64,000 nucleotides of DNA from contig JAKSNH010000002.1 of NCBI GenBank assembly GCA_024399955.1, positions 1-64,000 of the forward strand, written 5' to 3'. Origin of the DNA: Paludibacteraceae bacterium. Its GTDB lineage: Bacteria > Bacteroidota > Bacteroidia > Bacteroidales > Paludibacteraceae. A program made the position numbers and the translations under genes. Positions 2,875-22,100 of this stretch are shown piece by piece (position 1 is the stretch's first letter; every line of letters starts with the position of its first letter). The notes under the pieces are model-generated. The model ran no database searches. It was not told where the DNA came from and saw nothing but the letters and a program-made list of their open reading frames with translations.

Positions 2875-3597
2875 ATGAAAAAACTTATCCAACATATTTC
2901 CATTGAGGGCGAACGTCCTCTATATGAGAGCCAAGATGTGTGTTTAAAGCACGTTACTGTGCTTATGGGCGAGTCGGCACTCAAATGCAGCCGCCATGTC
3001 GAGGCTTCTCATTGTGACATGCAAGGCATGTATGTGTTTTGGGAGTGCGAAGATGTGCTATGCGAAGATAGTGTATTCGCTCCCTCGGCCCGAGCCTGCT
3101 CGTGGTATGGTCGGCATCACACCTACCGCCGATGCCAAATCGATTCGTCTAAGATGTTCCGCGAACTCACCCACCTAACCGTGGAGGATTGTCCTATCAG
3201 CAATGCTGCTGAGTTCTTTTGGAAATGTCGCGGAGGCGAACTCAATCGCCTGCAAATGACCAATGCCGAGTATGCCTTCCTGCATGCCGAGAAACTCAAA
3301 ATAAATCACTTGCAGTTGCAAGGCAAATATACCTTCCAGTATGCGCGTCATATAGAGATTCATCATGCTACGTTGGATACCAAGGATGCTTTTTGGGAAA
3401 GTGATGATTGTACCATCTATGACTCGGACCTTAAGGGCGAATACATCGGTTGGTATAGTCGAAACCTGCATTTAGTGCGTTGTCGCATTAGTGGTACGCA
3501 ACCCCTTTGCTATTGCCGGCACCTAATCTTAGAAGATTGTACTTTTGCTCCGGACGCCGACCGCGCCTTGGAGAAATCTGATTATACGATATTATGA
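2875..3597 (+). CDS. DUF3737-family protein, predicted right-handed beta-helix
   Basis: 240 aa, the usual length of DUF3737 proteins. It is rich in Cys, His and Tyr with a repeating rhythm of about 20 residues (for example LTVEDCPISNAAEFFWKC and IHHATLDTKDAFWESDDC), as expected for stacked rungs of a parallel beta-helix. No signal peptide is visible, so it is probably cytosolic. No biochemical function is established for the family to my knowledge. Its stop codon overlaps the next start (ATGA), so translation is coupled to the DUF4105-like gene. Confidence 0.75.
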   Translation: MKKLIQHISIEGERPLYESQDVCLKHVTVLMGESALKCSRHVEASHCDMQGMYVFWECEDVLCEDSVFAPSARACSWYGRHHTYRRCQIDSSKMFRELTHLTVEDCPISNAAEFFWKCRGGELNRLQMTNAEYAFLHAEKLKINHLQLQGKYTFQYARHIEIHHATLDTKDAFWESDDCTIYDSDLKGEYIGWYSRNLHLVRCRISGTQPLCYCRHLILEDCTFAPDADRALEKSDYTIL

Positions 3598-4349
3598 AAC
3601 GATTCGTTCTATCCTTATTATTTATCGCGTGCACGCTCGCGTCTTATGCGCGCGAAGTGGACCCACTCTTTGGCGATACTATTGATCGCACCGCCGATGA
3701 TTTTGTTATTGCCAGTCTCTGCATAGCCGATCCTACTAATTGGAAGGACGATTATCTTGGCACTAATGGTCATGCTTGGATTCGTCTGCAATGTCCTATC
3801 TTTAATTTGGATAACTGTTTCAGCTACGAAGGTGAACATGTGAATGATAAGCTGATAGATTATCTATTGGGCAGGACTAAAATGGGAATGTTCCGCTATT
3901 CAACGAAAGAGTACATAGAGGATTATCAAAAGTGGAATCGTGCTGTGCACGAGTATCGTCTCAACCTTCCTCCGGATGTGGAGCAACGTTTGTGGGAGAT
4001 TATGGATAACCATGTCACAAACCAACTTTCTTTGACTCAAGATATATCTAAATATGGTTGTGCTTCCACTGCAGCTGCTTTTGTGGTACGAGCATTGGTG
4101 CCCAAACATATTCACTATGATGTTCGTCCCGAACCAAGCACTTTATGTTGTCCTGCCTTATTGGTTGAATCCTGGCAGAATGCTACGGTGGATGGACAAC
4201 CCTTGTTGACGTACGAGGGAGATTTAGTTGTGGCTGATCCTGTTACGTGGTGGGATATATGGTATGATACAACTGCGGGGATAGTTATTATTGCTATATT
4301 GGCTTTTATAGGTATAACTGTTTGGCTGATACTTAAGTCTCGCAAATGA
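3594..4349 (+). CDS. DUF4105-like secreted or membrane protein, possible cysteine hydrolase or acyltransferase fold
   Basis: 251 aa. An N-terminal signal peptide (about residues 1-19) is followed by a periplasmic domain and a C-terminal membrane anchor (about 227-247) with a basic tail. GHAWIRL (His near residue 61) and YGCAST (Cys near 154) fit the His/Cys pair of DUF4105 and Lnb-type domains, which belong to the papain-like NlpC/P60 superfamily. Known Lnb proteins carry out lipoprotein N-acylation; whether this shorter protein does so is not shown. The gene overlaps its neighbours by 4 nt at both ends (ATGA), which suggests a joint role with the downstream fusion enzyme. The family call is moderate. 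Confidence 0.55.
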   Translation: MKRFVLSLLFIACTLASYAREVDPLFGDTIDRTADDFVIASLCIADPTNWKDDYLGTNGHAWIRLQCPIFNLDNCFSYEGEHVNDKLIDYLLGRTKMGMFRYSTKEYIEDYQKWNRAVHEYRLNLPPDVEQRLWEIMDNHVTNQLSLTQDISKYGCASTAAAFVVRALVPKHIHYDVRPEPSTLCCPALLVESWQNATVDGQPLLTYEGDLVVADPVTWWDIWYDTTAGIVIIAILAFIGITVWLILKSRK

Positions 4350-6463
4350 AATATCCGCTTCTTCCATATTCGCAATTGGTCTTTAAGCAGATGGAGGCAT
4401 ATACGTATGCCCCTTCTGTGTTTCGATTTGCCAAGAAAGATTTAGATGTGGATAAGGCACGTTGGATTTGTCAAAAGGCTATTCTTAACCATCCTGTCTT
4501 CCAAATGGATATAGATGCCAATGGGATGCAAGAATATAAGAAACCAGCAGACCCTTTAGTTGGCCCGTATCATACTATTCAAATATGGGAGGAAGGGGAT
4601 AGTGTATTAATCTCTTTTTACATACATCGTATTTTAGGCGATTCGTTTAGTTGGCTGATTCTTGCCGAGGATATGCTGCGGGCTTATCAGGGCTTGCCGT
4701 TGGAACCGGACCACTATTGGGATTATCTCCGGCAGTATACTGCTTTATCTACCGATGCTCATGCTTGTGCATCCCAAACAGCTCTTGTGGCTGAGTTTGG
4801 CGGTATCACTTGTCCTGTGCGTCCATGCACGGATATACCTTTGGATTCCGATGTGGTACCTATGGCTGGTGAGTATGTGGTGGACCTGTCTTCATACGCT
4901 GCTGCATTGGAACGCATATCGGCGCATGAACATGTGTCCTTAGATGGCCTAATGTGTCTTTGTAGCATGTTAGCCATCATGGATGATAATAATACCGATG
5001 ATGCAGCATTAACATGGGCGTATGTGGGACGCGATACGATAGAGGAACAGCGCATCTTTGGTTCGCTGCATAAGGATATACCCTTAAAACTCCATCGTGC
5101 ACCCATGCACGATATGCTCCGTTCTATCCGCAATGCGATGCGCTCAGGAATAGCTCATAGTGATTATCCGTTCACCCTTACACCACCATATTCGCAACTA
5201 TGGAACTATGCCGCTAATGTGTTGCATCAGCCGCTTTTGGAGGATGCGTTGGCTTCGTCGCCTATACCCTTTGAGATAGTGCCTGTTACGTCCGATCAAC
5301 CTGCGATTGCGTATAGTCTATTTGATATCGAGATAGAAGACCAGCCGCATCTGCAAGTGCGTTTCCGCTATTCGGCTACCCACTACACGGAGGAGCATAT
5401 CCGTCGCTTTGCGTCCCTATTGACGCATGCGTGCATCAGCCTTTCTCATTATGCTCTCGTCTATATTGACACACTACCTTTTGCGTCCCGTCTGGAGGCC
5501 CAGATTGCTGCTAATACATCCACCAACCCTGACCCCAAGACCAATCCCGTGCAGTCCTTGCAGGACTTCTATCACTATGCTACTCGTTACTTAACCGCCA
5601 TGCCGTGGCAGGGATTGGATATGAGTGAGGACGAAGGACTTTTCCATCGTATTGACCAGAGTATAGGTTATTTCTATTATATCTTTGGAGACCTTCAAAA
5701 CGATCCTGAAGTAGCTCGTTGGTTGAGTGCCTACGATACGGAGTGGGGCAGGTGGCTCAGTAGTGCCGATAGTTGGAACGATGAGTGCCTACGATTGGTG
5801 CAAGCCGACCCGTTGTTTGAACTATCTCGTTATGAGTCGCCCGACCATTGGCATTGTTGGAATGATTTTTTCTCTCGCCATCTTCTTCCCCATAGCACCA
5901 ACATGCGCTATCCTTTTATCTCTCCCTCTGATGGTGTTGTTCTTCGCTCTCCGGTCAAGACCGCTTCTATTGCTCATTGGATAGATATATTAGGAGATAG
6001 TCCCTATCGCAATTGTTTTGAGGGTGGTGAAACGTTCCATATCGTGCTGGATATGTACGATTACCATCGCTTCCATGCTCCCCTTGCCGGACGTGTTTTA
6101 GATGTGCGTCTTATAGATGGAGTACATAATGCCGGAGGACGTATCGTATGGGATGACCATCAGCATCGCTATCGGTATGACCAATTAGGGGACGAATCCT
6201 TCCAGATGATAGAAAAACGCGGTGTGTTGGTATTACAAACAGCCATGGGTAAAGTGGCTATTGTGCCGGTAGGTGTGGCACAAGTCAGTTCCGTTAATTG
6301 GCTTCCGTCTATCCAAGTGGGTGCTACGATAGAGCAAGGCGATGAATTAGGCTATTTCCTTTGTGGCGGCAGCGATATCGTCCTCTTCTTCGAACCCCAT
6401 GTTACCCTGCCTAATCTGTCCATTGGCGAGCATTTGAAAGCGGAAAAACCATTATTTTCTTAA
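4346..6463 (+). CDS. Fusion of a condensation-like domain and a phosphatidylserine-decarboxylase-like domain
   Basis: 705 aa. Residues ~1-385 resemble a non-ribosomal peptide synthetase condensation domain: LPYSQ at the start, HRILGDSFSW at 94-103 in place of HHxxxDG, and GRDTIEEQRIFGSLHKDIPL resembling the late GR...G...LPL motif. The usual second His of HHxxxDG is Arg95, so classical condensation catalysis is doubtful. Residues ~405-705 match phosphatidylserine decarboxylase: WNDFFSR, SPSDGVV, DYHRFHAPLAG and a C-terminal GGSD with Ser676 where self-cleavage would create the pyruvoyl cofactor. Known single-domain enzymes decarboxylate phosphatidylserine; relatives act on other amino acid derivatives. 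Position beside ketosynthase, carrier protein and ligase genes suggests an acyl-amine or lipoamino acid product, which is inference. Confidence 0.7.
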   Translation: MKYPLLPYSQLVFKQMEAYTYAPSVFRFAKKDLDVDKARWICQKAILNHPVFQMDIDANGMQEYKKPADPLVGPYHTIQIWEEGDSVLISFYIHRILGDSFSWLILAEDMLRAYQGLPLEPDHYWDYLRQYTALSTDAHACASQTALVAEFGGITCPVRPCTDIPLDSDVVPMAGEYVVDLSSYAAALERISAHEHVSLDGLMCLCSMLAIMDDNNTDDAALTWAYVGRDTIEEQRIFGSLHKDIPLKLHRAPMHDMLRSIRNAMRSGIAHSDYPFTLTPPYSQLWNYAANVLHQPLLEDALASSPIPFEIVPVTSDQPAIAYSLFDIEIEDQPHLQVRFRYSATHYTEEHIRRFASLLTHACISLSHYALVYIDTLPFASRLEAQIAANTSTNPDPKTNPVQSLQDFYHYATRYLTAMPWQGLDMSEDEGLFHRIDQSIGYFYYIFGDLQNDPEVARWLSAYDTEWGRWLSSADSWNDECLRLVQADPLFELSRYESPDHWHCWNDFFSRHLLPHSTNMRYPFISPSDGVVLRSPVKTASIAHWIDILGDSPYRNCFEGGETFHIVLDMYDYHRFHAPLAGRVLDVRLIDGVHNAGGRIVWDDHQHRYRYDQLGDESFQMIEKRGVLVLQTAMGKVAIVPVGVAQVSSVNWLPSIQVGATIEQGDELGYFLCGGSDIVLFFEPHVTLPNLSIGEHLKAEKPLFS

Positions 6464-6585: not shown

Positions 6586-7743
6586 ATGATAAATCGCAGT
6601 GCTAAAAATAAGGTGGAAAGGCTGTTGCAGGTGTTTCCTGCGGTAGTTGTTTTAGGTAGTCGTCAGTGTGGAAAATCTACATTGGTAAAGATGATTTCTG
6701 CTGATAGGGACGATGTGCTCTATGTGGATTTACAGAGCAGATATCAGCGGATGCAATTGGCTGATCCTGTGCTCTTTTTTGAACATAATGCAGATAAATT
6801 GATTTGCTTGGATGAGATACAACTCCTTCCGGATTTGTTTAGTTATCTTCGTACAGAAATAGATAGAGAACGTCGTCCGGGGCGGTTTATTCTGCTTGGT
6901 TCTGCTTCGCGAGATTTATTGCAGCATACTACTGAATCATTGGCAGGAAGGGTAGGATTGATAGATCTAACACCTTTCTTACTGCCGGAAGTGGCTTCGT
7001 ATGATGATTTTGACTTATCGTCTTTTTGGCTGCGCGGAGGATATCCGGATAGTTATTTGGCGATGGACGATGAGGCAAGTGCTTTGTGGCGGGAGAACTA
7101 TATTCGAACTTATATTGAACGAGATATTCCTCAATTGGGATTTGCCATTGCTGCAACTAAAATGCTTCGTCTGCTGACGATGCTATGCCATGAGCATGGT
7201 AGTATGATTAATTATAGCAAGTTAGCATCCTCTATGGATTTGACGGCTCCTACTATTCGCCATTATGTAGATATCTTGGAAGAAACATATATTGTGCGTG
7301 TTTTGCAGCCATGGTATAAAAATATTAGAAAGCGTCTCGTTAAAACTCCTCGTGTATATATCCGTGATACTGGTCTGCTGCATCAGGTGTTAGGAATTAC
7401 TGATTATAATCACTTATTAGGGCATCCTATCATCGGTTTTTCTTGGGAGGGAATGGTTGTAGAGAATGTTTGTTCCATTGTACGTGGAGCTACTTGTTCG
7501 TTTTATCGTAGCTTGGATGGTATGGAGGAGATGGATTTGGTGGTAGAGTGGCTTAATAGACGAGTTGCTATTGAATGTAAGAGTAGTGTGGAACCCCAAC
7601 TTTCGGATGGCTTCTATAAAGCATTAAAGACTTTGGATATACATGAGACGTATGTTGTTTGCCCAATAGATGACATATTTCCACTTCGTGAAGATATTCA
7701 GGTTTGTGGATTAAAGCAATTATGTGAGTTGTTGCAAGACTAA
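6586..7743 (+). CDS. AAA+ ATPase with DUF4143 C-terminal domain (AAA_14 family)
   Basis: 385 aa. Walker A GSRQCGKST (residues 24-32), Walker B LICLDEIQ (near 72-79) and a GSAS sensor-type motif form the AAA_14 domain. The C-terminal half is DUF4143-like, with a winged-helix-like stretch (INYSKLASSMDLTAPTIRHY) and a late AIECKSS motif that resembles the PD-(D/E)xK nuclease core. The family is abundant in Bacteroidetes and its function is not known. It has its own promoter and interrupts the lipid gene cluster; a fragment of the acyl carrier protein start follows directly. Codon use looks more AT-rich than the flanking pathway genes, which fits acquisition. Confidence 0.85.
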   Translation: MINRSAKNKVERLLQVFPAVVVLGSRQCGKSTLVKMISADRDDVLYVDLQSRYQRMQLADPVLFFEHNADKLICLDEIQLLPDLFSYLRTEIDRERRPGRFILLGSASRDLLQHTTESLAGRVGLIDLTPFLLPEVASYDDFDLSSFWLRGGYPDSYLAMDDEASALWRENYIRTYIERDIPQLGFAIAATKMLRLLTMLCHEHGSMINYSKLASSMDLTAPTIRHYVDILEETYIVRVLQPWYKNIRKRLVKTPRVYIRDTGLLHQVLGITDYNHLLGHPIIGFSWEGMVVENVCSIVRGATCSFYRSLDGMEEMDLVVEWLNRRVAIECKSSVEPQLSDGFYKALKTLDIHETYVVCPIDDIFPLREDIQVCGLKQLCELLQD

Positions 7744-7799
7744 CTACTATGACAAGACCCGAAATAGAACAACAAGTAATCGCTTTTCTCCCTGCCTAA
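7744..7799 (+). pseudogene. Fragment of an acyl carrier protein 5' end joined to the tail of the decarboxylase gene
   Basis: 7744-7789 matches 11541-11586 (the true carrier gene start) and begins with an ATG at 7749. It reads MTRPEIEQQVIAFLPA then stop; the true gene reads MTRPEIEQRILAFLRD. From 7790 the sequence switches to a copy of the 3' end of the fusion gene. This is a recombination scar, not a gene. Confidence 0.85.
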
Positions 7800-7930
7800 T
7801 CTGCCTATCGGCGAACAATTGAAGGCAAAAAATCCATTATTTTTATAAATTTGTATTAAAATCGCTGAAATTTATCATATTTTTGTGATTTTTATTTGCG
7901 CAATTCATTTGTTTTTACTATCTTTGCATT
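7790..7930 (+). repeat. Diverged copy of the fusion gene 3' end and its downstream promoter
   Basis: The stretch aligns with 6405-6545. Both begin CCCTGCCTAATCTG, run through the stop region and continue into the AT-rich intergenic promoter (TTTGCG, AATTCATTT, then a -7 element). By eye identity is about three quarters. It indicates duplication of a segment that originally separated the fusion gene from what followed it. Confidence 0.85.
7895..7926 (+). promoter_or_regulatory. Promoter of the second ATPase gene, followed by repeated AATTTG-type motifs
   Basis: TTTG at 7895-7898 and TATCTTTG at 7919-7926. The leader (7927-8027) contains CAAATT twice (near 7930 and 7941) and then AATTTGTGTATTG and ATTTGGTGTATTG (7988-8021), giving direct and inverted half-sites between promoter and start codon. 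Confidence 0.7.
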
Positions 7931-8027
7931 CAAATTCGGTCAAATTGGTGTAGATTCCAGTTGTTTAAAAAACTTCTTTTGGTGCGAATTTGTGTATTGA
8001 AAAAATTAGATTTGGTGTATTGTGGCA

Positions 8028-9380
8028 ATGAAACGAAAGATATACAATCAGTTGCTGGAGTGGAAAGAGAAGCGCTCCTGCAAGGAAGCCCTACTGATAG
8101 AAGGGGCACGACGTATAGGTAAGAGCTATATAGTTGAAGAATTTGCTCGTCGAGAGTACCAATCTTACATGTTGATCGACTTCAGTAAGGTCTCAAAAGA
8201 GATAAAGGAAATTTTTGATAATTATCTTACAGATCAAAAGACGCTTTTCCGTTTGCTCAGCATTGCGACAGGCGTGAAACTTTATGAGCGAGAGTCGCTT
8301 ATTATCTTTGATGAAGTACAGAAGTACCCACGGGCACGAGAGGCGGTTAAGGAGTTGGTGGCTCAGCATACATATGACTATATCGAAACCGGCTCGCTGG
8401 TTAGTATCAAAAAAAACACTGAGGGCATACTAATTCCCAGTGAAGAACATCCTCTAACGATGCACCCGATGGATTTTGAGGAGTTTCTATGGGCGATAGG
8501 CGAAGATGAACTGATGGACTATGTTCGCGAGTGTTTTGAGGCACATCATGCACCGGCTACAGCTATTCATCGTAAACTGATGAACTATCTTAGAACCTAC
8601 ATCGTAGTTGGAGGAATGCCACAAGCTGTGCAAGAGTATGTGAACACACAGGATTTGGATGAGGTAGATCATATCAAACGCAGGATATTAGGGCTCTATC
8701 GTGCAGATATCTTCAATTACGCAGGAACGTATGCGGATAAGGTGGCGCGCATTTGGGATGTTATACCATCCGAACTCAAACGCGACAAGAAGCGTTTCCG
8801 CATAGGTCAGGTGAAGCATGGCGCTCGCACACGCGATTACGAGAGCGCATTGTTTTGGCTAAAAGAGGCGAAAGTGGTGAACGCATGCTACAATGCTACC
8901 GAGCCCAATATCGGACTGAAGATGAACGAGGATGAACAAAAATTCAAACTCTATTTAGCAGATACAGGTCTATTGCTCTCTCATGGTTTTGAGGAAGACC
9001 CTCGAATCATGCAAGAACTATATCGTAAATTGATATTGGGCAAATTGGAAATTAACAAAGGCATGATGATTGAAAACCTGGTGGCACAGATGCTATGTGC
9101 GACCGGTAAGTCACTCTTCTATTATGTCAATCCAGAGAAAGCAGACAAGGAAGAACATATGGAGATTGATTTTCTGATAGCAAAACCAGTTATTACCAAT
9201 CGACACAATATCTGTCCTATTGAGGTGAAGTCAACACAGCGCTACACATTGTCTTCAGTACGGAAGTTTTCAGATAAGTTTAACGAAAATATAGCCACAC
9301 GTTACGTTATTCATAGTGGCGTGTACAAAGAGGAAGATGGCATCACGTACCTTCCTCTTTATATGACACCATGTTTATAG
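8028..9380 (+). CDS. AAA+ ATPase with DUF4143-type C-terminal domain, second family member
   Basis: 450 aa from ATG at 8028; GTG at 8022 is an alternative start two codons upstream. Walker A GARRIGKS near residues 27-34 and Walker B LIIFDEVQ near 90 are clear. The C-terminal half has FKLYLADTGLLLSHGF and the late CPIEVKSTQRY motif typical of DUF4143 ATPases. It is not a close copy of the preceding ATPase, so the two were acquired separately or one was replaced. It has its own promoter and is followed by a second carrier-protein start fragment. Cellular role unknown. Confidence 0.85.
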   Translation: MKRKIYNQLLEWKEKRSCKEALLIEGARRIGKSYIVEEFARREYQSYMLIDFSKVSKEIKEIFDNYLTDQKTLFRLLSIATGVKLYERESLIIFDEVQKYPRAREAVKELVAQHTYDYIETGSLVSIKKNTEGILIPSEEHPLTMHPMDFEEFLWAIGEDELMDYVRECFEAHHAPATAIHRKLMNYLRTYIVVGGMPQAVQEYVNTQDLDEVDHIKRRILGLYRADIFNYAGTYADKVARIWDVIPSELKRDKKRFRIGQVKHGARTRDYESALFWLKEAKVVNACYNATEPNIGLKMNEDEQKFKLYLADTGLLLSHGFEEDPRIMQELYRKLILGKLEINKGMMIENLVAQMLCATGKSLFYYVNPEKADKEEHMEIDFLIAKPVITNRHNICPIEVKSTQRYTLSSVRKFSDKFNENIATRYVIHSGVYKEEDGITYLPLYMTPCL

Positions 9381-9526: not shown

Positions 9527-9547
9527 CAGCCAAATTAGTTGAATAAT

Positions 9548-10309
9548 ATGAAATATGCATTAGTTACAGGAGGAAGTCGTGGTATAGGTCGCGCCATTTG
9601 TGTTCAATTAGCTAAGGATGGTTATTCTGTGATTATAAATTATAAATCCAACCATGCTGCAGCAGAGGAGACATTGCGTCTTATCCGTGAAGTTGGCGGT
9701 ACAGCAGAACTGCTTCCGTTTGATGTGTCTGATATGGATGCTGTTAATGCCGCTATGGATAAATGGGAGACAACGCATCAAGATGATTTTATTGATGTAT
9801 TGGTAAATAACGCAGGGATAATAAAAGACGATGTCTTGCTGGGAATTGAGCCGAATGATTGGCATGCTGTGGTTGATATTAATATAAATGGTTTTTACTA
9901 TGTAACCCGCAGAGTTCTATCCAATATGATTATTAACCATCATGGGCGAATCATTAATATGTCATCTATTGCTGCAACTCACCCTTTCAAAGGACAAGTG
10001 AATTATAGTGCAGCTAAGGCGGCAATAGAGGGAGCAACACGCTCTTTGGCAGTTGAAGTTGCTCCTAAACAGATAACAGTCAATGCAATTGCGCCGGGTT
10101 TAATAGCGACAGAGTTATTGTATAACTCGGCTGCGGAACATGATAATTTGGATATTGACATCAAGAAAATCGTTCCAATGAGAAGGTTGGGGCTACCGGA
10201 AGAGGTGGCTTATTTGGCATCATTCCTTGCAAGCGATAAAGCTGCATATATATCAGGGCAAGTCATTGGAATTAACGGCATGTATGGTACTTTTGTAGAG
10301 AAGTTATGA
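9548..10309 (+). CDS. fabG: 3-oxoacyl-ACP reductase-like short-chain dehydrogenase
   Basis: 253 aa from ATG 9548. Classical SDR features: the cofactor loop TGGSRGIGRA near residues 7-16, NNAG, a catalytic Ser in MSSIAATHPF, and the YSAAK catalytic pair. FabG-type enzymes reduce 3-oxoacyl-ACP to 3-hydroxyacyl-ACP with NADPH. It overlaps the ketosynthase start by 4 nt (ATGA). No dehydratase or enoyl reductase lies in the cluster, so the product chain may end at the 3-hydroxyacyl stage or borrow housekeeping enzymes. Probably a pathway-specific copy rather than the housekeeping FabG. Confidence 0.85.
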   Translation: MKYALVTGGSRGIGRAICVQLAKDGYSVIINYKSNHAAAEETLRLIREVGGTAELLPFDVSDMDAVNAAMDKWETTHQDDFIDVLVNNAGIIKDDVLLGIEPNDWHAVVDININGFYYVTRRVLSNMIINHHGRIINMSSIAATHPFKGQVNYSAAKAAIEGATRSLAVEVAPKQITVNAIAPGLIATELLYNSAAEHDNLDIDIKKIVPMRRLGLPEEVAYLASFLASDKAAYISGQVIGINGMYGTFVEKL

Positions 10310-11526
10310 GACGTGTGGTCGTTACAGGAATGGGAATTTGGTCTTGCATTGGTCAAAACTTGCATGACGTAACAGAAAGTTTGCAACATGGGCGTTCTGG
10401 AATCATTTTTGATTCTGCGCGGTTGGAGTTTGGTCTGCGCTGTGGCTTAGTAGGCGATGTGCCTAAACCGGACTTAAAACCATTATTACCTCGTAAATTC
10501 AGGGCAACGATGTCTGAAGATGCTCAGTATGCCTACATGGCGGCTTCGCAGGCTTTTGCTCAATCCGGTATAACGGATGATTATTTGCGGCAGAACGAAG
10601 TAGGTATCATCTTTGGCAATGATGGTATAGTTAGTCATATTGTTGAGAACTATACTATTATGCAGCAAGAGCATGATTCTATGATGATTACTCCCAATGC
10701 CTTGTTTCAGAGTGAGACTTCATCTGTTACAATGAACCTCAGTACTATCTTCCATCTTCGTGGTATCAGCATGATAGTGGGGGCAGCTTGTGCCAGTAGC
10801 AGCCATGCAATAGGTCTGGGACGTATGTATATTCAATCTGGCCTGCAAGATATGATTTTAGTAGGAGGAACGGTTGAAACATCTATGCTTGGCTCTCCTT
10901 CTACGGATGCTATTGATGCTCTTTCTTTACGTAATAATGACCCTACTCGTGCTTGCCGTCCTTTTGACAAGGATTGCGATGGTATGATACCAAGTGGCGG
11001 AGCAGCAGCGTTGGTTTTAGAGGACTATGACCATGCTGTAGCACGTGGTGCTACTATTCTTGCCGAAGTGGCAGGATATGGCTTTTCAACCAATGGTACG
11101 GAGGATATTTCTATGCCCAATAACGAAGGCGAATATATCGCTATGCAACGAGCATTGAAGGATGCCTGTGTTACAACAGACGAGATTGATTATGTCAATG
11201 CTCATGCCACTTCCACTCCTCTTGGAGACGCAGAAGAAGCCATCGCTTTAACTCGTCTCTTCAAAGGCAAGAAAGCTTGGATTAGTTCTACTAAATCCAT
11301 GACGGGCCATGAAAATTGGATGGCTGGAGCTAGCGAGGCAGTATATAGTATATTGATGATGCAGAATAATTTTATTGCACCCAATATCAATTTAGACCAA
11401 GTGATAGACGAAGCTAAAGACTTAAAAATCGCTCGCGAAACGATTTATCAACCAATCAATATTGTATTGAGTAATTCCTCCGGAATGGGGGGCACTAATA
11501 GTGCACTCATTTTCCGAACAATATAA
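10306..11526 (+). CDS. Beta-ketoacyl-ACP synthase (FabF/KAS II-like)
   Basis: 406 aa, usual KAS II length. The catalytic triad is visible: Cys162 in GAACASSSHA, His300 in NAHATSTPLGD and His335 in KSMTGHENWMAGA. It performs decarboxylative condensation of an acyl thioester with malonyl-ACP. TGHENWMAGASE departs slightly from the common GHxxGAAG pattern, as in specialised ketosynthases. It lies between the coupled ketoreductase and the dedicated carrier protein, which supports a secondary acyl pathway. Confidence 0.88.
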   Translation: MRRVVVTGMGIWSCIGQNLHDVTESLQHGRSGIIFDSARLEFGLRCGLVGDVPKPDLKPLLPRKFRATMSEDAQYAYMAASQAFAQSGITDDYLRQNEVGIIFGNDGIVSHIVENYTIMQQEHDSMMITPNALFQSETSSVTMNLSTIFHLRGISMIVGAACASSSHAIGLGRMYIQSGLQDMILVGGTVETSMLGSPSTDAIDALSLRNNDPTRACRPFDKDCDGMIPSGGAAALVLEDYDHAVARGATILAEVAGYGFSTNGTEDISMPNNEGEYIAMQRALKDACVTTDEIDYVNAHATSTPLGDAEEAIALTRLFKGKKAWISSTKSMTGHENWMAGASEAVYSILMMQNNFIAPNINLDQVIDEAKDLKIARETIYQPINIVLSNSSGMGGTNSALIFRTI

Positions 11527-11545
11527 TTATATAATAAATTCTACT

Positions 11546-11788
11546 ATGACAAGACCTGAAATAGAACAACGTATTCTCGCGTTTCTTCGCGATAAATTAG
11601 AAATTGACGAATCTATTCTTTTGCCTACCAATGAACTCAAACGAGACATAGGTATGTCGAGTTTAGACGCGATGGAATTGTCCATCTTTATTAAACGTAC
11701 TTTTGGTTTTCAACCGGAGCGCAAAGATATCCATACATTGGTAACCTTAGCTGATGTGTATGCGTACATTGAAGCACATCAATCATGA
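11546..11788 (+). CDS. Acyl carrier protein
   Basis: 80 aa from ATG 11546, the start also preserved in the two upstream fragments. IGMSSLDAMEL is the phosphopantetheine attachment motif, with Ser39 as the modified residue; the usual Asp before it is Ser38. The protein is acidic and helical as expected. It overlaps the ligase by 4 nt (ATGA), so it is probably charged by that ligase and used by the adjacent ketosynthase. A reading frame upstream to 11501 exists but lies inside the ketosynthase end and is unlikely to be used. Confidence 0.88.
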   Translation: MTRPEIEQRILAFLRDKLEIDESILLPTNELKRDIGMSSLDAMELSIFIKRTFGFQPERKDIHTLVTLADVYAYIEAHQS

Positions 11789-13245
11789 CGCGTCATTATT
11801 TAGACAGATTAGTTGAGGTTATTCGTACTAATTGGAATCAACCGGCATTAACGGACTACGCTACCTTAGATGGTGGAGAAGGTAATTCCTACACCTATGG
11901 TGAGATGTATGGTCAAATATGTGCATTATGTGACCGCTTCCACCAACTGGGTATTCAAAAAGGTGACCATATCGCTATATGTGGCGCTAATTCAGCCAAT
12001 TGGGTGGTGGCTTATTTAGCCATCGCAGCATACTCAGGGGTGAGTGTCACAATTCTTCATTCGCAGACTCCTGAAGAAATCACGCGACAACTTATTTTTT
12101 CGGAAACTAAAGTCTTGATTGTGGATAGTTCTATAGTAGAAGGGTTGCAAGCACAATGTCACTTCCCATCAATTAAGATGTTATTAATGGAGGATATTGT
12201 GGCTTTAGAATATCTCCCATGTACTAATGTGTCTTTTGCATATGGTCATTCTGAAGATTTGGCACAATTGTGTTTTACTTCTGGAAGCAATGGCGTCGCT
12301 AAGGCTGTTATGTTACCGATACGAAGTGTATCTAATAATGTCAAAAATATTATAGAAGGATTCCCTTCTTCCCAAAATTCGGCAATGCTTAGTATTTTGC
12401 CGTTGGCGCACGTATTTGGTTTGACAACTGAGGTATTGGGGCAGTTAGTGCGTGGAAAACATATTTTTTTATTAGGTGCAGATATTTCTTGGCAGACAAT
12501 ATGGCAGGCACTTAATCGTGTCAAACCATATGCGTTATCGGCTATCCCTTTTTATATTGAGACGCTTTCAAATAGGTATTCTCATTCTTTTTTTGAGTTG
12601 TTGCGAAATCAATGTCAGCAACTTCACATTGGAGGTGCTGCATTAAATCCTAATGTTGAGAAAGATTTGCTCAATCATCACATCCCTTTTTCAGTGGGGT
12701 ATGGTGCTACAGAAGCAGGCCCTTTGATTAGTGATTCACTTTGGCAGAACTACCATCCTTATTCTTGTGGTAAAGTAGTTTCAGGAATGCAAGCCTCTAT
12801 CTCTCCACAAGGCGAAATTCTTGTTCGTGGCGAGAATGTCATGTTAGGCTACTACAAAGATCCCGAAGCTACAGCGGCTAAGATAGACAAGGATGGTTGG
12901 CTGCATACCGGCGACCGTGGACATCTAGACGAAGAAGGTAATCTCTATGTGGAAGGCCGATTGGAGCAAGATATGGTTGTTCTCCCTTCTGGAGAGAACA
13001 TCAGCCTGCCTAATGTTGAATCCATCATCAATCAAGTGGATGGGATAGAGGAGTCCCTCGTTTTGGCGCGTAATGGCCATTTGGTAGCATTGGTTTATGC
13101 TTCTGCTAATCTCAATCGACAAGACCTATTGCGAACTATCAACCCCCAATTGCCGTCGTTTAGTCAATTATATGACCTTGAGTTCGTCTTTGCTCCCTTC
13201 CAACGCACTGAAAAACGAACCATCAAACGTTATTTATATACGTAA
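11785..13245 (+). CDS. AMP-dependent acyl-CoA/acyl-ACP synthetase
   Basis: 486 aa, ANL superfamily. Seen motifs: CFTSGSNGVAKAVM (A3 phosphate loop), GYGATEAGP (A5), GWLHTGDRGHLDEEGNLYVEGR (A7-A8, residues near 372-393) and a C-terminal RTEKRTIKR where the catalytic Lys is expected. It should activate a carboxylic acid as acyl-AMP and transfer it to the neighbouring carrier protein, giving the starter unit. Substrate cannot be read from the sequence. Last gene of the operon, followed by a terminator. Confidence 0.85.
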   Translation: MTRHYLDRLVEVIRTNWNQPALTDYATLDGGEGNSYTYGEMYGQICALCDRFHQLGIQKGDHIAICGANSANWVVAYLAIAAYSGVSVTILHSQTPEEITRQLIFSETKVLIVDSSIVEGLQAQCHFPSIKMLLMEDIVALEYLPCTNVSFAYGHSEDLAQLCFTSGSNGVAKAVMLPIRSVSNNVKNIIEGFPSSQNSAMLSILPLAHVFGLTTEVLGQLVRGKHIFLLGADISWQTIWQALNRVKPYALSAIPFYIETLSNRYSHSFFELLRNQCQQLHIGGAALNPNVEKDLLNHHIPFSVGYGATEAGPLISDSLWQNYHPYSCGKVVSGMQASISPQGEILVRGENVMLGYYKDPEATAAKIDKDGWLHTGDRGHLDEEGNLYVEGRLEQDMVVLPSGENISLPNVESIINQVDGIEESLVLARNGHLVALVYASANLNRQDLLRTINPQLPSFSQLYDLEFVFAPFQRTEKRTIKRYLYT

Positions 13246-14092: not shown

Positions 14093-15406
14093 ATGCAGTT
14101 TTACGATAGGAAAGAAGAGATTTCTGTTATAGACAATAATAGAATGCAAGCTGAAAATAGTGCTACGTTCACTGTGCTGATGGGCCGTAGAAGAGTTGGG
14201 AAAACGTCTTTGTTACTACATGCGTTGCAAAATCATCCCTTTGCGTACTTATTTGTATCAAAGGATAATGAAACCATGCTATGCTCAAAATTTCAGCGGG
14301 TATTGGAGCAAGAATTAGATTTCCATATTTATGGATCTCTAGTGCATTTTAGAGACCTTTTTGAAGCTATCATGCGTGAATCTCAGCAGCGACATTTTAC
14401 CATTATCATCGATGAATTCCAAAATTTGTATAGGGTGAATCCTGCTATTTTTAGTGAAATGCAAGACCTATGGGATAGATATCATGTGGGCTCCAAACTC
14501 AATCTAATTGTTTGTGGCAGCATTCAATCTCTAATGAAACGTATCTTTGAGGATAAGAACGAACCCTTGTATGGCCGTCCAACAGCCAAACTAATGCTTC
14601 AACCTTTTTCAATACAAGTCATTAAACAAATTCTGCATGATAACAACCCAACATTTACATCCGAAGACTTGCTTTGCTTGTACATGATAACGGGTGGGGT
14701 GGCTAAGTACGTTGAATTGCTGATGGACGCGCGTTGCTGTACTAAAGACAAGATGTTGCGTTATGTGTGTCGTTCTGATTCGTATTTTCTTACTGAAGGC
14801 CGTGATTTGCTAAATCAAGAGTTTAGTGATGATAGCACAACATATTTTTCATTATTACAATTGATTGCGCATGGTATAACACGACGTGGCGAACTGGATG
14901 GTATCTTACAAAAAGATATGGGTGTGTATTTGCAGAATTTAGAGCGAAATTATCAACTTATTCGTCGCGTTAAACCTGTTTTGTCACGTCCTAATAGCAA
15001 AGTAACTGCATATGAGATTATAGATCCATTCTTGCGCTTCTGGTTTCACTTTATTTATCCTTATCAATCGCTAATTGAAACACAACAATATAATCTGTTA
15101 TATAAGCATATCAAGGAAAATTATGAACAATTCTCAGGACGTACTTTAGAATGTTATTTTCAGCGGTTATGGATGGAGTCTGGACAATATACTGTGGTGG
15201 GGAATTGGTGGGATAGGAAAGGAGAAAACGAAATCGATATGATAGCCCTAAATGAATGGACGCATACTGGTGTCGTAGCGGAAATTAAACGTAATGCAAA
15301 GAAAATAGAGCTTTCTATCTTAGAGCAAAAGATGCAGAGTTTACCTGCGCCGGAGTTCGCCAAATATACGCTTACTCCACAGGCGTTATCCCTACAGGAC
15401 ATGTAG
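14093..15406 (+). CDS. AAA+ ATPase of the archaeal-ATPase/DUF234 type
   Basis: 437 aa. Walker A GRRRVGKTS near residues 31-39 and Walker B IIIDEFQ near 102-108. The C-terminal third has the DUF234 signature (YEIIDPFLRFWFHFIYPY) and a nuclease-like end (GENEIDMIALNE ... AEIKRN) similar to PD-(D/E)xK cores. Function is not known. Unlike the AAA_14/DUF4143 ATPases nearby it belongs to a different subfamily but shares the same terminator-promoter module upstream. Confidence 0.85.
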   Translation: MQFYDRKEEISVIDNNRMQAENSATFTVLMGRRRVGKTSLLLHALQNHPFAYLFVSKDNETMLCSKFQRVLEQELDFHIYGSLVHFRDLFEAIMRESQQRHFTIIIDEFQNLYRVNPAIFSEMQDLWDRYHVGSKLNLIVCGSIQSLMKRIFEDKNEPLYGRPTAKLMLQPFSIQVIKQILHDNNPTFTSEDLLCLYMITGGVAKYVELLMDARCCTKDKMLRYVCRSDSYFLTEGRDLLNQEFSDDSTTYFSLLQLIAHGITRRGELDGILQKDMGVYLQNLERNYQLIRRVKPVLSRPNSKVTAYEIIDPFLRFWFHFIYPYQSLIETQQYNLLYKHIKENYEQFSGRTLECYFQRLWMESGQYTVVGNWWDRKGENEIDMIALNEWTHTGVVAEIKRNAKKIELSILEQKMQSLPAPEFAKYTLTPQALSLQDM

Positions 15407-15523: not shown

Positions 15524-16197
15524 ATTGCTATTAGGCAATATGCCTATTAGATGTAGAGCGAGCCTGCAATCTTGCCGGATTGGCGAGCAGGAGCAGAAAC
15601 TCCCGGTTGGGGCATTCCTCCGGATTCAGGGAACATAATGCTATCCAACTCAAACTGTACGGTTGCCGTTTGCGGCATAATATATGTTTTTTTCATAATC
15701 GTAATAATAATTATCAATTAACAATTAGCAATTATCAGTTATACCTTATTTAATTGCGTGCCCGTGTGCGCTATAGACTTTACCATCGCGGATGATGTAT
15801 AGGTGGTCATTAAGGATGACTTTCTGTACATTGCCATTAAGGACAGCCTCGTCAAAGCCGGTCACTACGTTATTGATTTTGTGAACGAGACGCAGACCGT
15901 AACTGTTCTCGGTGCCCTTACTGAGTGAGATAGGAGCCGGAGCGATGTTGAGGTTCCAGATAGCGCTGCCGTTCTCGGTGAGATAGATAGTAGCATCGGT
16001 TGGCACTTCATTCAGAGCAATGGTATATTCACCATTAGCAGGAGCACTCATGCCAAGTGAGAAAGTAGCTTGGTCATTGGTCATCAGCGCCTCATTTGCC
16101 ACAAGTTGCAGGTCATAATCATTCACCCATAAACGAGCCACCTTAGGAGTACCCATCGTAGCCTTGCTCAGGTCGATACCTGCCACATATTGCTCTG
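15504..16197. repeat. Outer inverted repeat, left arm (about 694 bp)
   Basis: Position x here matches 51705 minus x on the opposite strand, i.e. 35508-36201. In the segments I compared base by base there was no difference: the gene end, the microprotein gene and the flank into the hairpin. It covers the last ~150 codons of the giant gene and the whole microprotein gene. Divergence starts at the codon Ser/Ala before EQYVAGIDLSK. Confidence 0.88.
15547..15696 (-). CDS. 49-aa microprotein downstream of the giant surface protein (copy 1)
   Basis: It reads MKKTYIMPQTATVQFELDSI then MFPESGGMPQPGVSAPARQS and ends GKIAGSLYI. It starts 49 nt after the stop of the giant gene and is identical to the copy at 36009-36158. 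The MKKTYIxP start resembles many short, poorly studied Bacteroidales proteins. There is no signal peptide or membrane segment. It is probably cotranscribed with the giant gene and may be a chaperone, regulator or peptide precursor; none of these is shown. Confidence 0.65.
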   Translation of the reverse strand: MKKTYIMPQTATVQFELDSIMFPESGGMPQPGVSAPARQSGKIAGSLYI

Positions 16198-19100
16198 AAG
16201 CATCTTCGGACGCGCGGATGAATATTTGGTCCACATATTTATCTTGGTTCTGTTTGTAGAGACGCACATTGATGAACTCGGTAGAAGCAGTTTCGCCCAT
16301 GCGACGAGCAGCCACAGCGCTTGGCGTTTCGCCCACTACTACGCTGCCTTCTTTAGAAACCTGTACCATAGCGGCATTACCGATAGCCAAAGGATTGGAA
16401 CTTGCATCAACTGCATTGAAGCAATTTTCGACACTATTGAGCGTTTGAATGTAGGTAAAGTCACCACTGAGTTGGTTATCGGTCAAGCCATTGTTAGCCA
16501 CACCATTCCAACCGCCGTTCTCATTTTCGGAAGATCTGGTTACTTCGATATTTCCTTTATTATTCAAGGACGCACCTTTTGCAGCATAGAAGCGGTAGCG
16601 GTTATAGTTGGAGTTATCAAACTCGCAGAGGTAGAACACACCCGGAACGAATTGAGGACCATTGAACGGAGTCCAGTTATTATCACTTCGGCCATTGGTT
16701 GCACGATCTGCCTCGTTGTAGGTATAAACGAGGTAGTTCTTATTCAACACAGCGGACTCCCAATTACCATTAGTCTCATTAAGACGTTTTACTCCATCGT
16801 CCACATTTACATTAAACGGAACGGAGAAACAATAGTAGAGTTTATCGTTCATTTTGCCGGATTTGTTCATCACAATTTCGATGCAAACATCACCAAGAAT
16901 CTCCAATTTTTCGGTTGTAGCCAAATTGGCTCCTGTGTTGTCACCCGGAACAGATTGTAGCACTAAGTTCTGAGCCGTAACCGAACCTGCGCCGGTGATA
17001 TTCAATGTTTTACCAGGTTCCAAAACAACGGTATATGCTTCAGTTGGTTCATTGATGGTTTTTGTATCATCTTCAACCTCCAGTGTATTGGTCTTGGAGA
17101 TTTGGTAATAATACTTCACCACAGTTGAGCCATCTCCTGCCACAGTAACGGGTTGTGGTTCAGGAGTGACATAACCTTCTATCACTATTGGTTCTGGTGT
17201 AACGACATCTCCGGTTTGGGCATGATACTCCATGCAAGAATATCGTTTCTCGAATGGAGCACCATCCTTAATATGCAACTTATAATATTCTACCAAATAA
17301 GTTGTATTACCAGGAGTCCAAGTTGCGGTATAAGTAACATCTTTCTCCGGCATAGTTGCATCCACAGCAGGAGTCCATGCTACGAAGTCATAACCTGCTT
17401 TTTCCACAACTGGAGCCACGATATGTGTACCCACTACTGTTTCTCCCTCTGTATAGGAAGACGATGTAATTGTACCACCATCTAAGATCCACGTAACAGA
17501 GAACTTATTAGACCAAACAGCCGTGAATGGAGTAGAAGAAGTTACTTGTACCGTACGCGGATTGGTAGTAACACCATCGCTCCAGCGAACGAAGTGGTAT
17601 CCTGTAGCAGGATTAACGGCCTCAATAATTGCCTCGGTGAGATAGTCATACTGCTTAGAGAAACGATCTTGGTTAGTGAAGGTTTCACCGCCAACGGTTA
17701 CATTCACTTGTCCGTACGTACCACCATCTACGATGAGACGCATCGTGTTGGGTTTCTCAACGAAGGTAGCCCTATAGTCTTGAGCCTTGGTTACGGCACT
17801 TACCAACGGATTCCATACTAACTCATAATAGTAATGTTCAGGATCGGCATGTTCCTTAGTTGGGAGTGTAGCTGTGTAAGTTGGCACGACGTTGTATGCC
17901 ACTTGGCTGGTTTGCAAGACAGTAACACCATCTTCTGCTAAGAAACGAATTTGGAATTTCTTAGCGACATCACGGTATTTAGCCACATAAACGACATTCT
18001 CGGTAACAGGAGCGATGTCGGGTGTCCAACCGTCAAATTCAAAGTCCTTATCAGCAATACCCGGTTTGGTAGGAGTTGTACCATTATACTCAGGCATAGC
18101 GTTATAAGCCACATTGTTATCCGTTTCGAGTGTGGTGCCTTCGTAATTCTTCCATGTCACGGTATAAGTGAGTGTAGTAGGATCATCCGGCAAATCGGTA
18201 TAAATACCCGTATAGGTAGTGATACCTGTAACAGCACTAATAGTTGGTGTCCAAGTCAGTTTCTTACCTGGCTGGTCATCTAAGAAACGTTCGCTATAAG
18301 GAACTTCGCCCCACTTGAAGTAGTTGATTTCGCTTGTTCCACCCACCGTGAAGGTTATTTTGTATAGTTTATCTTTTTGCTCATATTGGGCAACAAAGAC
18401 GGTATTCTCAGTCACTTTAAGATCATCCGTGAGGGCAGGAGACCAACCGATGAAGTCGTAAGTATAGTATGAACTTGCGGCACGCGCAGGAAGTGAACCG
18501 AGATATTTAGGAGTAGAGTTATACTTCACTTGATAGTCGGCAATCTTAGTACCATCCCAATTCTGCCAGGTAACGGTCACTTCTTTCTCTTTCCACGCGC
18601 TCGCGCCTGCGTCGTAATAATAATAGGTGTCATTATCGGCGCAGTAGTAGATGTCATCGTATGGAGCCACTTCCCACCATTGGCAGTTGTCAGACATGAG
18701 GATAAACATACGTGTCTCGTCGGCAGAATAGTAAAGGTGGGTAGTAGCATCTTCGGTGCCAGACTTCAAAGCCACATAGTCTCCCGGTTTAGCATAATAT
18801 GTACCATAGTTATCATATACGAAACACCCGTCATCCGTCAAAAGTGTCCATTTGTCATTCATATAGCAGTAAGATTTACCGGCAGATGTACCAAGTGTCG
18901 TCGCGAATTGAGGATCGTTTGTTCCATTCTTGAGACGAGCAGGATCGCTTGAGGCAGAGATTGCTGTATATTCTTTAGCTGCTGTAAATTTCAACATATA
19001 CACAGTCCCATTGCTACTTGGCGCATTTGTAGAGAACTTCACTGTACCCGCATCACTATTGGACGAGTATATATTCGCGCCACCAGCTGTAGTGTAGACT

Positions 19101-22100
19101 TTTCCTTGTATGTCAAATGTTCCGTGTACATTAATAGAAGCATCCGTCAAACTTGCTAAAGTAGTTGCGCGAGGGCAGGTACTCCAAGACGGAGAATAAA
19201 CAACAGGTCTCACGTATTTACCTTGATATACATAGCCATCCCATTCATCAACATCATACAGGTAAAGTGATTGTCCGCTTTCTACAGTAACCGTAGATTC
19301 CTTGTCAACTTCAATCTCAGCACCAGGAAGTAACACCGTATTTTGAGAAATACCCATATTACCCGACAAAAGGTGTATGGACATGTTACTAGTTACGGGA
19401 AGAACATAGTCTGCCGAATTCATAGTTACACTCAACTTAATTGTCATTGATCCTAAACGAGCACTACTACTGATAGTATACAATTGACGATCATGTTGAG
19501 CATCATACTCTTTTCTCACCCAAGTGTCTTCGCTATCATCTTTATCTTCCATCAGAAACATACAACCACTTGTACCAATAATACCAATATCATCCGCCTT
19601 TTGCGTGCCCCCAACAGTTAGATTAACAGAACAAGAACCAATACACTTTGATCCGGGATGATAAGTTGATGGTACCTCAATGTTTTGAATATAATATTGG
19701 TTCATCGGAAACACCTTATATGTACTTTTATTCTTTCCAGAAATTAAGCCCGATGTATTGTCACCACCCTTATAATCCGTTGTTTGGAAATCCTCGTACA
19801 CCGTCGAACCTCGACGTAAATCAACCTCACCAGTACCGGTAATATACCCCCATGCAATGAGTTTTGATCCATCTTGCATCGTAAGAAAACTCTCCGTGCC
19901 CATTTCAAGTTGTCCGTACTTACCCGCAACCGCGCCATTCTGCCCCATTGTATAACTCTGACGACCACTAACCTCCAATGTGCCATAAACATTCATGTGC
20001 ACTCCAGATGCAAAAGTCAATTTGCGAAACGAAGAAGCCTGCGTATATGCTATGCGAGTCGCCGTTTTTCCTATTGCCTCTGTTTGGTCTGCGCTCCATG
20101 GCACTAACAATGTAGCATTGGAAGGCAGTGTATAATTACCGGCAGGTAAGATATAGTCGCAAAGCATCACAATGGTCAAAGTGTTGGTTGTGTTGTTGGC
20201 ATACAACAATGCCGTTTCTAAATCGTAGAAAGGAGTCTCCTGTGTCTTTTTATTCACAGTTTCTCTCACTTTACATGTAGCCTGCCCAAGAGGGCGCTCA
20301 TTAGCTACCACGTATCGATAACCGGCATCGTATTCTGCACCATAATTTAGAGCATATGCATTATATTCTTCCGTTAGAAACTTCGACAAATCTGTATTTG
20401 TTTTGTAAAAGCCTCCTTTTAAATTAACCTTACCCACTGTACCATAAATAGGAGCAGTTGAGCCATTCATTTTTCCTCCGTTAACATTAAATGTTGCTCC
20501 TTTTTGATACAATGCGTACGCGGTAGTGGGAGTTGCCTCTATTATTGCACCATCTTCAACAGTTACAGTCCCCGCTTCTGCATAAACGCCATAGGCGGTA
20601 TTGGTTCCTGCGGTGGCATTGATAGTACCTCCATTTACTAAGATAGTACCAGCACCTTTCCCAAAAATTCCATATGCAGTAGCAGTCTTAGGCTGAGCTT
20701 TTATGGTTCCACCAGAGAATGTTATTGCCCCCGTAGAAGCATTATATATACCACACGCAGTAGTGGTTTGTGCTTGAGCTAAAATGTTAGCAACTCCTGA
20801 AATATTTACCGTTCCTGCTGCATTATTGTAAATGCCATAAGCAGACGTTGTTCCAGAACTACTTATTTTGGCTGTAATTGAACCTCCAGAAATATCTACA
20901 CTATTAGAGGCGGTATTCATCCATACACCATAGGACTTAGTTGTTTGAGCTTGAGTAGTAATCGTACCGCCCTCCATAGTTAGTTGAGCATTGTAATTTC
21001 CGTCCAAGTAAACACCCACAGCTTCTGTGGTGCTGATTGTAGTAGATTGAATATCAATATTACCAGAGAGATTAACCTGACCATAACCCAAAATACCTCG
21101 TGATTTTGTTTTGGTCTCCACCAAAATTGTTCCACCGCTAAAATTGCCCACAGCAGGAGTCGTTGCTCCTGCTCCAATTTGAGCGCCATAACCATATTGG
21201 TCTGAATAAGCCTCAATTTTTCCTCCTGTCATATTAAACGTAAATCCATCTGTAACATATACTCCGTACGTACGAGCACTAGTTGAAGTGGTTACATCTG
21301 CCGTATTTTGTGCATAAATAGAGCCACTTTGAAGGTTCAGAGTACCTTTTGTTACATAAACGGCATACATCTTACCATTTACTTCACCAATCATTGAAAT
21401 CACACCTTTGCCCAAATCACTATTATCAACAATATTGACAATAGCATTCGCATTGTTAATGTTTAACAACTTTGAGACCGAACCAGCCAAACTACTCCCA
21501 TTCAGATCCAAAGTCATTGATTTTGTAATGGATTGCGACGTAGAAATATCCAACACATTATCCAAGAGCTGTAAGGTCGGATTAGTAGTCAACGTGTTCG
21601 CATAAGCCAAAGCCTCTGCAAAAGTTTTATAATTCGTGGAACTGCCAGCATCTATTACGCATGCTTGATATTCACTTGGAGCTTTGAACTTGGCCTTAAT
21701 AGTGCGATTGCTATTAATCTTAGTATTCGTACCATCAGCCAACACATAATCTTCTTCTTCGGAAAGAATCGTTTCTACATCCCCATTCACTTCATACCAC
21801 CCCAAGAAGGTACCAGAAGAAACAGTCAATTCAATTTTATCTGTTTCATAAGATGAGACCTGTTCGTCCGCATCCTTGGGAACATAACTCTTATTATATG
21901 CCACAAGTCCGGTTTTACCACTATTGTCCGTAATATTACTATATGCGACAGAATAAGAGCCATTTTCTGGAGCAAGGAAGGTGATAGTATAAGTCGGCAA
22001 TTCCGTCCACAAAGCCTCAGCGCTGAATGATGAAGGGTTTTTACTATCTGTACTCGAAGCCGATACCGTTAAACTATGGTATCCACTTTTTGAACTGGCG

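Follow-up and report, generated by a model that had tools for sequence, protein, structure and literature searches.

Condensation (C) domains of nonribosomal peptide synthetases (NRPSs) are domains of 410-450 residues with an HHxxxDG motif whose second His is the catalytic residue. According to a review, C domains in some cases stay active when the second His is mutated, and ORF18, a C domain whose HQxxxDM motif lacks His at the catalytic position, uses a soluble amine as acceptor (PMC11546977). The X-domain of glycopeptide synthesis, with the motif HRxxxDD, is a natural C-like domain with Arg that has a recruitment role (PMC11546977).

Decarboxylases work next to carrier-protein pathways in two described systems. 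For bacillamide, the tryptamine used by the terminal C domain of an NRPS comes from a decarboxylase (PMC8795117). This BmdA-BmdB system pairs an amino-acid decarboxylase with an amine-accepting C domain, where the decarboxylase is a PLP enzyme and a separate protein, and the C domain is canonical and part of a large NRPS. In vicenistatin synthesis, VinO, also a PLP enzyme, decarboxylates 3-methylaspartate only after the ligase VinN has loaded the acyl carrier protein (ACP) VinL, and no C-like domain is present (PMC11284099). Flexirubin and aryl-polyene type II PKS clusters contain a beta-ketoacyl synthase (KS), an ACP, an AMP-ligase, and FabZ-like and CrtI-like proteins.

The window analyzed here is a 64,000-nucleotide stretch from a Paludibacteraceae bacterium. 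It encodes a protein in which a C-like domain is joined to a pyruvoyl decarboxylase domain related to phosphatidylserine decarboxylase (PSD) and to PsiD. Both domains are of known kinds. The reading frame is intact, begins with ATG, and overlaps the stop codon of the upstream gene by 4 bp (ATGA). A frameshift or assembly artefact as the source of the fusion is excluded, because three species have such a fused frame. The features of the locus are listed in Table 1.

Table 1. Features of the fused gene and its neighbors in the window.
Feature	Position	Strand	Evidence or remark
705-aa fusion, C-like domain + pyruvoyl decarboxylase	4346..6463	+	same fusion type in L055, L056
C-like half, aa 1-379	4346..5482	+	PF00668; predicted fold
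HRILGDS motif, aa 94-100, Arg95 on catalytic His position	4625..4645	+	aligned to TycC HHxxxDG
PsiD/PSD-like decarboxylase half, aa 380-705, with PsiD-like N-terminal helical region	5483..6463	+	PF02666; profiles; structural alignment
Asp529, aligned with PSD conserved Asp (SPxDG)	5930..5932	+	Asp in 35/39 relatives
His574-R-F-His577 (YHRFH), PSD catalytic His region	6065..6076	+	both His in 39/39
GGSD, aa 674-677, predicted self-cleavage Gly675/Ser676	6365..6376	+	Gly675, Ser676, Asp677 in 39/39
DUF3737 protein	2875..3597	+	PF12541 E 5e-83
Lnb-like (lipoprotein N-acyltransferase-like) membrane protein	3594..4349	+	weak PF13387; 46/46 loci
AAA_14/DUF4143 ATPase	6586..7743	+	between fused gene and remaining cluster
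Second AAA_14/DUF4143 ATPase	8022..9380	+	
FabG-type reductase, flexirubin FlxB-like	9539..10309	+	322.6 bits, below FlxB cut-off 340
Beta-ketoacyl synthase	10306..11526	+	
Acyl carrier protein, 80 aa, attachment motif GMSSLD	11546..11788	+	
AMP-forming acid ligase	11785..13245	+	PF00501 E 7e-56; 4-bp overlap with ACP gene

The N-terminal half matches the Pfam Condensation family at residues 73-362 (E 1.6e-10, 40.7 bits against a cut-off of 30.6). The initial annotation had described a C domain with HRxxxDS in place of HHxxxDG and Arg95 at the usual catalytic His, and profile alignment to TycC, in which the second His of HHxxxDG falls at this position, bears this out. Structure prediction, which had been proposed as the check on this half, returned the double CAT fold of C domains. 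The AlphaFold model, built on an alignment of 41 sequences, has a pLDDT of 92.9 and a pTM of 0.90. It matches NRPS C domains over its whole length (Foldseek E 5e-22) and aligns with the LgrA C domain at a VIA-align Z of 31.3 (352 residues, rmsd 3.3). The fold and the motif Asp99 are thus shared with canonical C domains, but the motif here is xRxLxD, the domain has about 370 residues, and there is no carrier domain in this polypeptide.

R95, L97, and D99 are identical in all 41 relatives. The first residue of the motif is N, S, D, or H across these relatives, and position 100, directly after Asp99, is G, A, S, N, E, M, or T. His49, His242, and Asn291 are also invariant in the family. Decay of a C domain is excluded, as about 25 positions beyond R95, L97, and D99 are invariant over the 41 sequences, which have identities down to 36%. 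NRPS C domains of the same genus and order served as a control and retain HHxxxDG. Because Arg is invariant in the relatives while these control domains keep the canonical motif, Arg at the catalytic His position is, as judged from the alignments, a conserved trait of the C-like family and not decay.

Two outliers of the family, L096 (8739-12800) and L099 (9749-11362), have a C-like domain with a carrier-like remnant at the N-terminus. It resembles a carrier-domain C-terminal half, that of the neighboring A-PCP protein of L096, but is without its Ser. The local scores of 64 and 59 exceed the highest values from shuffled sequences, 51 and 48 (0 of 2000 shuffles). The remnant suggests that the C-like family may have descended from a PCP-C unit. 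Separately, approximately 30 of 178 genomes of the genus encode an NRPS-like frame of ~2,400 aa with C-domain matches, and most of these genomes are without the Arg-type C domain.

The C-terminal half matches PS_Dcarbxylase at residues 505-699 (E 1.4e-26, 93.9 bits against a curated cut-off of 22). It had been read as a decarboxylase with all expected residues and GGSD at the self-cleavage site (Ser676), and the alignment with E. coli PSD agrees, placing D529, H574, and H577 on the conserved residues. Against solved structures, the family profile matches PsiD with an E of 3e-17, a PsiD-like enzyme of A. oryzae with 1e-12, and E. coli PSD with 2e-9. The same order of amino-acid decarboxylases before PSD is found with the predicted structure, where VIA-align gives Z 14.0 for the A. 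oryzae arginine decarboxylase 9jer, 13.3 for PsiD, and 9.5 for E. coli PSD, with unrelated folds at 7.8 and below. The predicted structure thus agrees with a PSD/PsiD fold, but the model is only moderate (mean pLDDT 73), and Foldseek alone gave no match to it with an E below 1e-3. By profile and model comparison, the decarboxylase half is nearer to amino-acid decarboxylases of the fungal PsiD-like kind than to PSD. PsiD-like enzymes (9jer and the tryptophan decarboxylase PsiD, 8x4q/8zia) share with it PF02666, the N-terminal region, the Asp and His residues, and the Gly-Ser site. They differ in that identity is 15-20% in the structural alignment and in that the decarboxylase here is fused to or located beside a C-like domain. 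E. coli PSD (6l06/7cnw) has the superfamily and catalytic residues in common, whereas the decarboxylase half here has a longer N-terminal region.

A main role as housekeeping Psd is excluded for two reasons. Scores to the NCBIfam PSD equivalog are far below the cut-off (best 56.4 against 371 bits), and this genome has, on another contig, a further and shorter PF02666 gene (230-aa frame), which is likely the normal housekeeping Psd. In a tree, the cluster decarboxylases form one group beside stand-alone homologues from many Bacteroidota. Among the stand-alone PsiD-like decarboxylases (L160-L169, L175), several have signal- or lipoprotein-like N-termini, and L175 has a tandem pair.

The initial annotation knew of no characterized enzyme with this fusion and proposed to look for it in other genomes, where it was indeed found. 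Fused frames of 707 aa occur in MAGs of Candidatus Colicola equi (L055) and C. caccequi (L056). L099, labelled Prevotellaceae UBA1726, is a separate fused case whose frame runs off the contig. Among 200 genomes of the family, the fused form is found only in G000 and G050, and a C-like gene directly followed by a decarboxylase gene is found in eleven other genomes of the genus and in G008 of a second genus. Of the 45 loci obtained from species genomes, nearly all are from Paludibacteraceae or unplaced Bacteroidales MAGs, and many come from rumen or horse gut. Within the genus, a full-length C-like domain (E < 1e-100) is present in 45 of the 178 genomes, and in three of these carriers it lies in a frame of over 700 aa, the rest being 325-486 aa. 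Overlaps of stop and start between the C-like and decarboxylase genes are common among relatives. The fusion is the exception and is lineage-specific, and the adjacent, often overlapping gene pair is the usual form. The gene pair and its cluster are therefore the relevant unit of biology. As to gain of the fusion versus an ancestral fusion, the basal forks are weak in both trees.

The gene pair belongs to a conserved cluster. Across 46 loci, many of which are cut by contig ends, the Lnb-like gene and the C-like gene are present in 46, the decarboxylase in 44, the ACP in 36, DUF3737 in 28, the AMP-ligase in 27, KS in 21, FabG in 20, and a CrtI-like flavoenzyme in nine. One of the two loci missing the decarboxylase is itself cut by a contig end. 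The Lnb-like protein has an invariant His60 and Cys156 (44 of 44), and the DUF3737 gene usually marks the cluster end in other genomes. Minimal clusters consist of Lnb-like, C-like, decarboxylase, ACP, ligase, and DUF3737 genes; larger clusters add FabD, FabG, KS, FabZ-like, and CrtI-like proteins. In C. equi, the ACP and ligase genes directly follow the fused gene. Clusters of this kind resemble flexirubin/aryl-polyene type II PKS clusters in KS, ACP, AMP-ligase, FabZ-like, and CrtI-like proteins, and the FabG of L070 passes the FlxB cut-off (370.6 against 340 bits). They differ from them in the C-like/decarboxylase pair and the Lnb-like protein, and the FabG of the window falls below that cut-off.

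In the window, the two AAA_14/DUF4143 ATPase genes are probably accessory inserts, because the kind of gene and its place vary between genomes (HipBA, other ATPases). As pathway parts they were set aside on the same grounds. Accessory genes vary around the cluster in general, often just after the decarboxylase gene, and include DUF4143 AAA ATPases, ATPase_2/DUF234, HipBA, and 23S-IVP four-helix proteins (window 6586-9380 and 14093-15406; L037:10891-12274; L034, L036, L039). In some clusters, a homologue of Pyr4-like transmembrane terpene cyclases and a second Lnb-like gene lie between the ACP and ligase genes (L097:9039-10873, L060:14405-16236). On the minus strand at 15746-22429, the window also encodes a very large, apparently secreted protein of 2,227 aa with an InlB-like repeat match below the cut-off, and relatives of this protein adjoin the cluster in L034, L037, L038, and L039.

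An acylated amine or aminolipid is a plausible product of the cluster, because an ACP and a ligase are encoded next door. The reading that we favor, tentatively and at somewhat under an even chance, is that the decarboxylase makes an amine and the C-like half couples it to acyl-ACP, releasing an N-acyl amine. The fused protein would then serve biosynthesis in a small pathway built on a carrier protein. The decarboxylase half would self-cleave at Gly675-Ser676 to form the pyruvoyl group and would convert a free amino acid to a primary amine. The AMP-ligase would place a carboxylic acid onto the ACP, and KS and FabG would extend it where they are present. The C-like half would join the acyl group of this donor to the amine made nearby, which is the acceptor, and would release the N-acyl amine; a possible role of the Lnb-like protein is to act on the product after export. 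The fusion would hold the amine source beside the coupling site. Each part has a use in such a scheme, since the ligase, the ACP, the C-like protein, and the decarboxylase occur once each in minimal clusters.

Several findings are consistent with this coupling of a local amine. The fold and alignment of both halves agree with it; the Asp, both His, and the Gly-Ser site of the decarboxylase are retained in nearly all relatives; and the closest solved structures of this half are amino-acid decarboxylases, ahead of PSD. The genes are conserved across 46 loci with frequent stop/start overlaps. Precedents are found in bacillamide (PMC8795117) and in ORF18 and the second-His mutants (PMC11546977). 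Against it, Arg replaces the catalytic His in all 41 relatives, and the X-domain that shares this Arg is a recruitment domain (PMC11546977). Bacillamide synthesis also shows that a decarboxylase need not touch the NRPS, so a fusion is not required by such chemistry (PMC8795117). The moderate quality of the decarboxylase model weighs on the same side, as do the two ATPase genes that part the fused gene from FabG, KS, ACP, and ligase in the window. In addition, L096 has a C-like protein and an A-PCP protein without a decarboxylase.

The strongest alternative is a close rival, in our view only slightly less probable than amine coupling. The C-like half would be a non-catalytic platform, like the X-domain, that binds the ACP for the decarboxylase half. 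An amino acid tethered to the ACP by its side-chain carboxyl would lose its free alpha-carboxyl, giving an amino-acyl-ACP for further use. The invariant Arg is as in the X-domain motif (PMC11546977), and the X-domain structure 4tx2 is among the structural matches of the C-like half (Z 29.6). Canonical C domains differ little in Z and fit the model just as well, and the fold therefore gives no preference for X over C. The second Asp of HRxxxDD is absent, the family having one Asp only with a variable position 100. The C-like domain is free-standing or fused to a decarboxylase, and no P450 was seen in the cluster. The vicenistatin VinN, VinL, and VinO have the same set of parts, a ligase, an ACP, and a decarboxylase, with decarboxylation on the carrier (PMC11284099). 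Docking also gives the fusion an obvious purpose, but in minimal clusters neither a KS nor a thioesterase is present that could take up or free the intermediate. Fold and sequence do not separate docking from amine coupling.

The initial annotation had suggested the reverse order, with condensation first and decarboxylation of the product to an acyl-amine. The acyl-amine product remains plausible, but an acyl group on the alpha-amine would disfavor this order of steps. In pyruvoyl decarboxylases, the substrate is bound through its free alpha-amine as a Schiff base, which N-acyl amino acids are unable to form by the established mechanism; since a free amine is needed, decarboxylation after N-acylation is chemically disfavored. 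The C-like half could join an acyl group and an amino acid ahead of the decarboxylase half only by side-chain acylation, such as O-acyl-serine to O-acyl-ethanolamine. PSD itself acts on a side-chain-substituted serine, phosphatidylserine, and the decarboxylase half is a member of PF02666, both of which agree with this order. That half is, however, nearer to decarboxylases of free amino acids than to PSD. To our knowledge there is no example of such an order, and we regard it as unlikely.

About as unlikely is that the halves have unrelated jobs and were joined merely by loss of a stop codon between neighboring, co-transcribed genes, which would be easy where relatives mostly have separate proteins with short overlaps and which fits a fused form confined to three genomes of one clade, but the C/decarboxylase pairing is nearly universal (44 of 46 loci) and L099 has a second or ancestral fusion.

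In the open-access literature searched, no description was found of the fusion, of a PSD in NRPS or aryl-polyene clusters, or of DUF3737/DUF4105, and the Arg-type C-like family, its PsiD-like partner, the fusion, and the cluster are apparently undescribed there. The family bears on what can replace the catalytic His of a C domain and on when a C fold turns into a dock, and its at least 41 natural sequences, in which Arg is invariant and a dedicated enzyme is the partner, make direct testing possible. The wider proposal, to which we give a chance approaching even, is that Arg-based or docking-only C-like domains and a dedicated self-cleaving amino-acid decarboxylase form one unit that makes an undescribed class of aminolipids or acyl amines in Paludibacteraceae of the rumen and horse gut. 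Amines and acyl amines of gut bacteria often act on their hosts, and roughly one in four of the genomes sampled from a rumen/gut genus carries the cluster.

The start of the fused gene may differ in its history from its surroundings. Positions 3700-4650 of the window, which take in the larger part of the Lnb-like gene and some 100 N-terminal residues of the C-like half with HRILGDS included, are mostly only 50-75% identical to the two other Colicola genomes, and the flanks are mostly 80-100% identical to them. The sharp edge in identity near 4650 suggests allele replacement by recombination.
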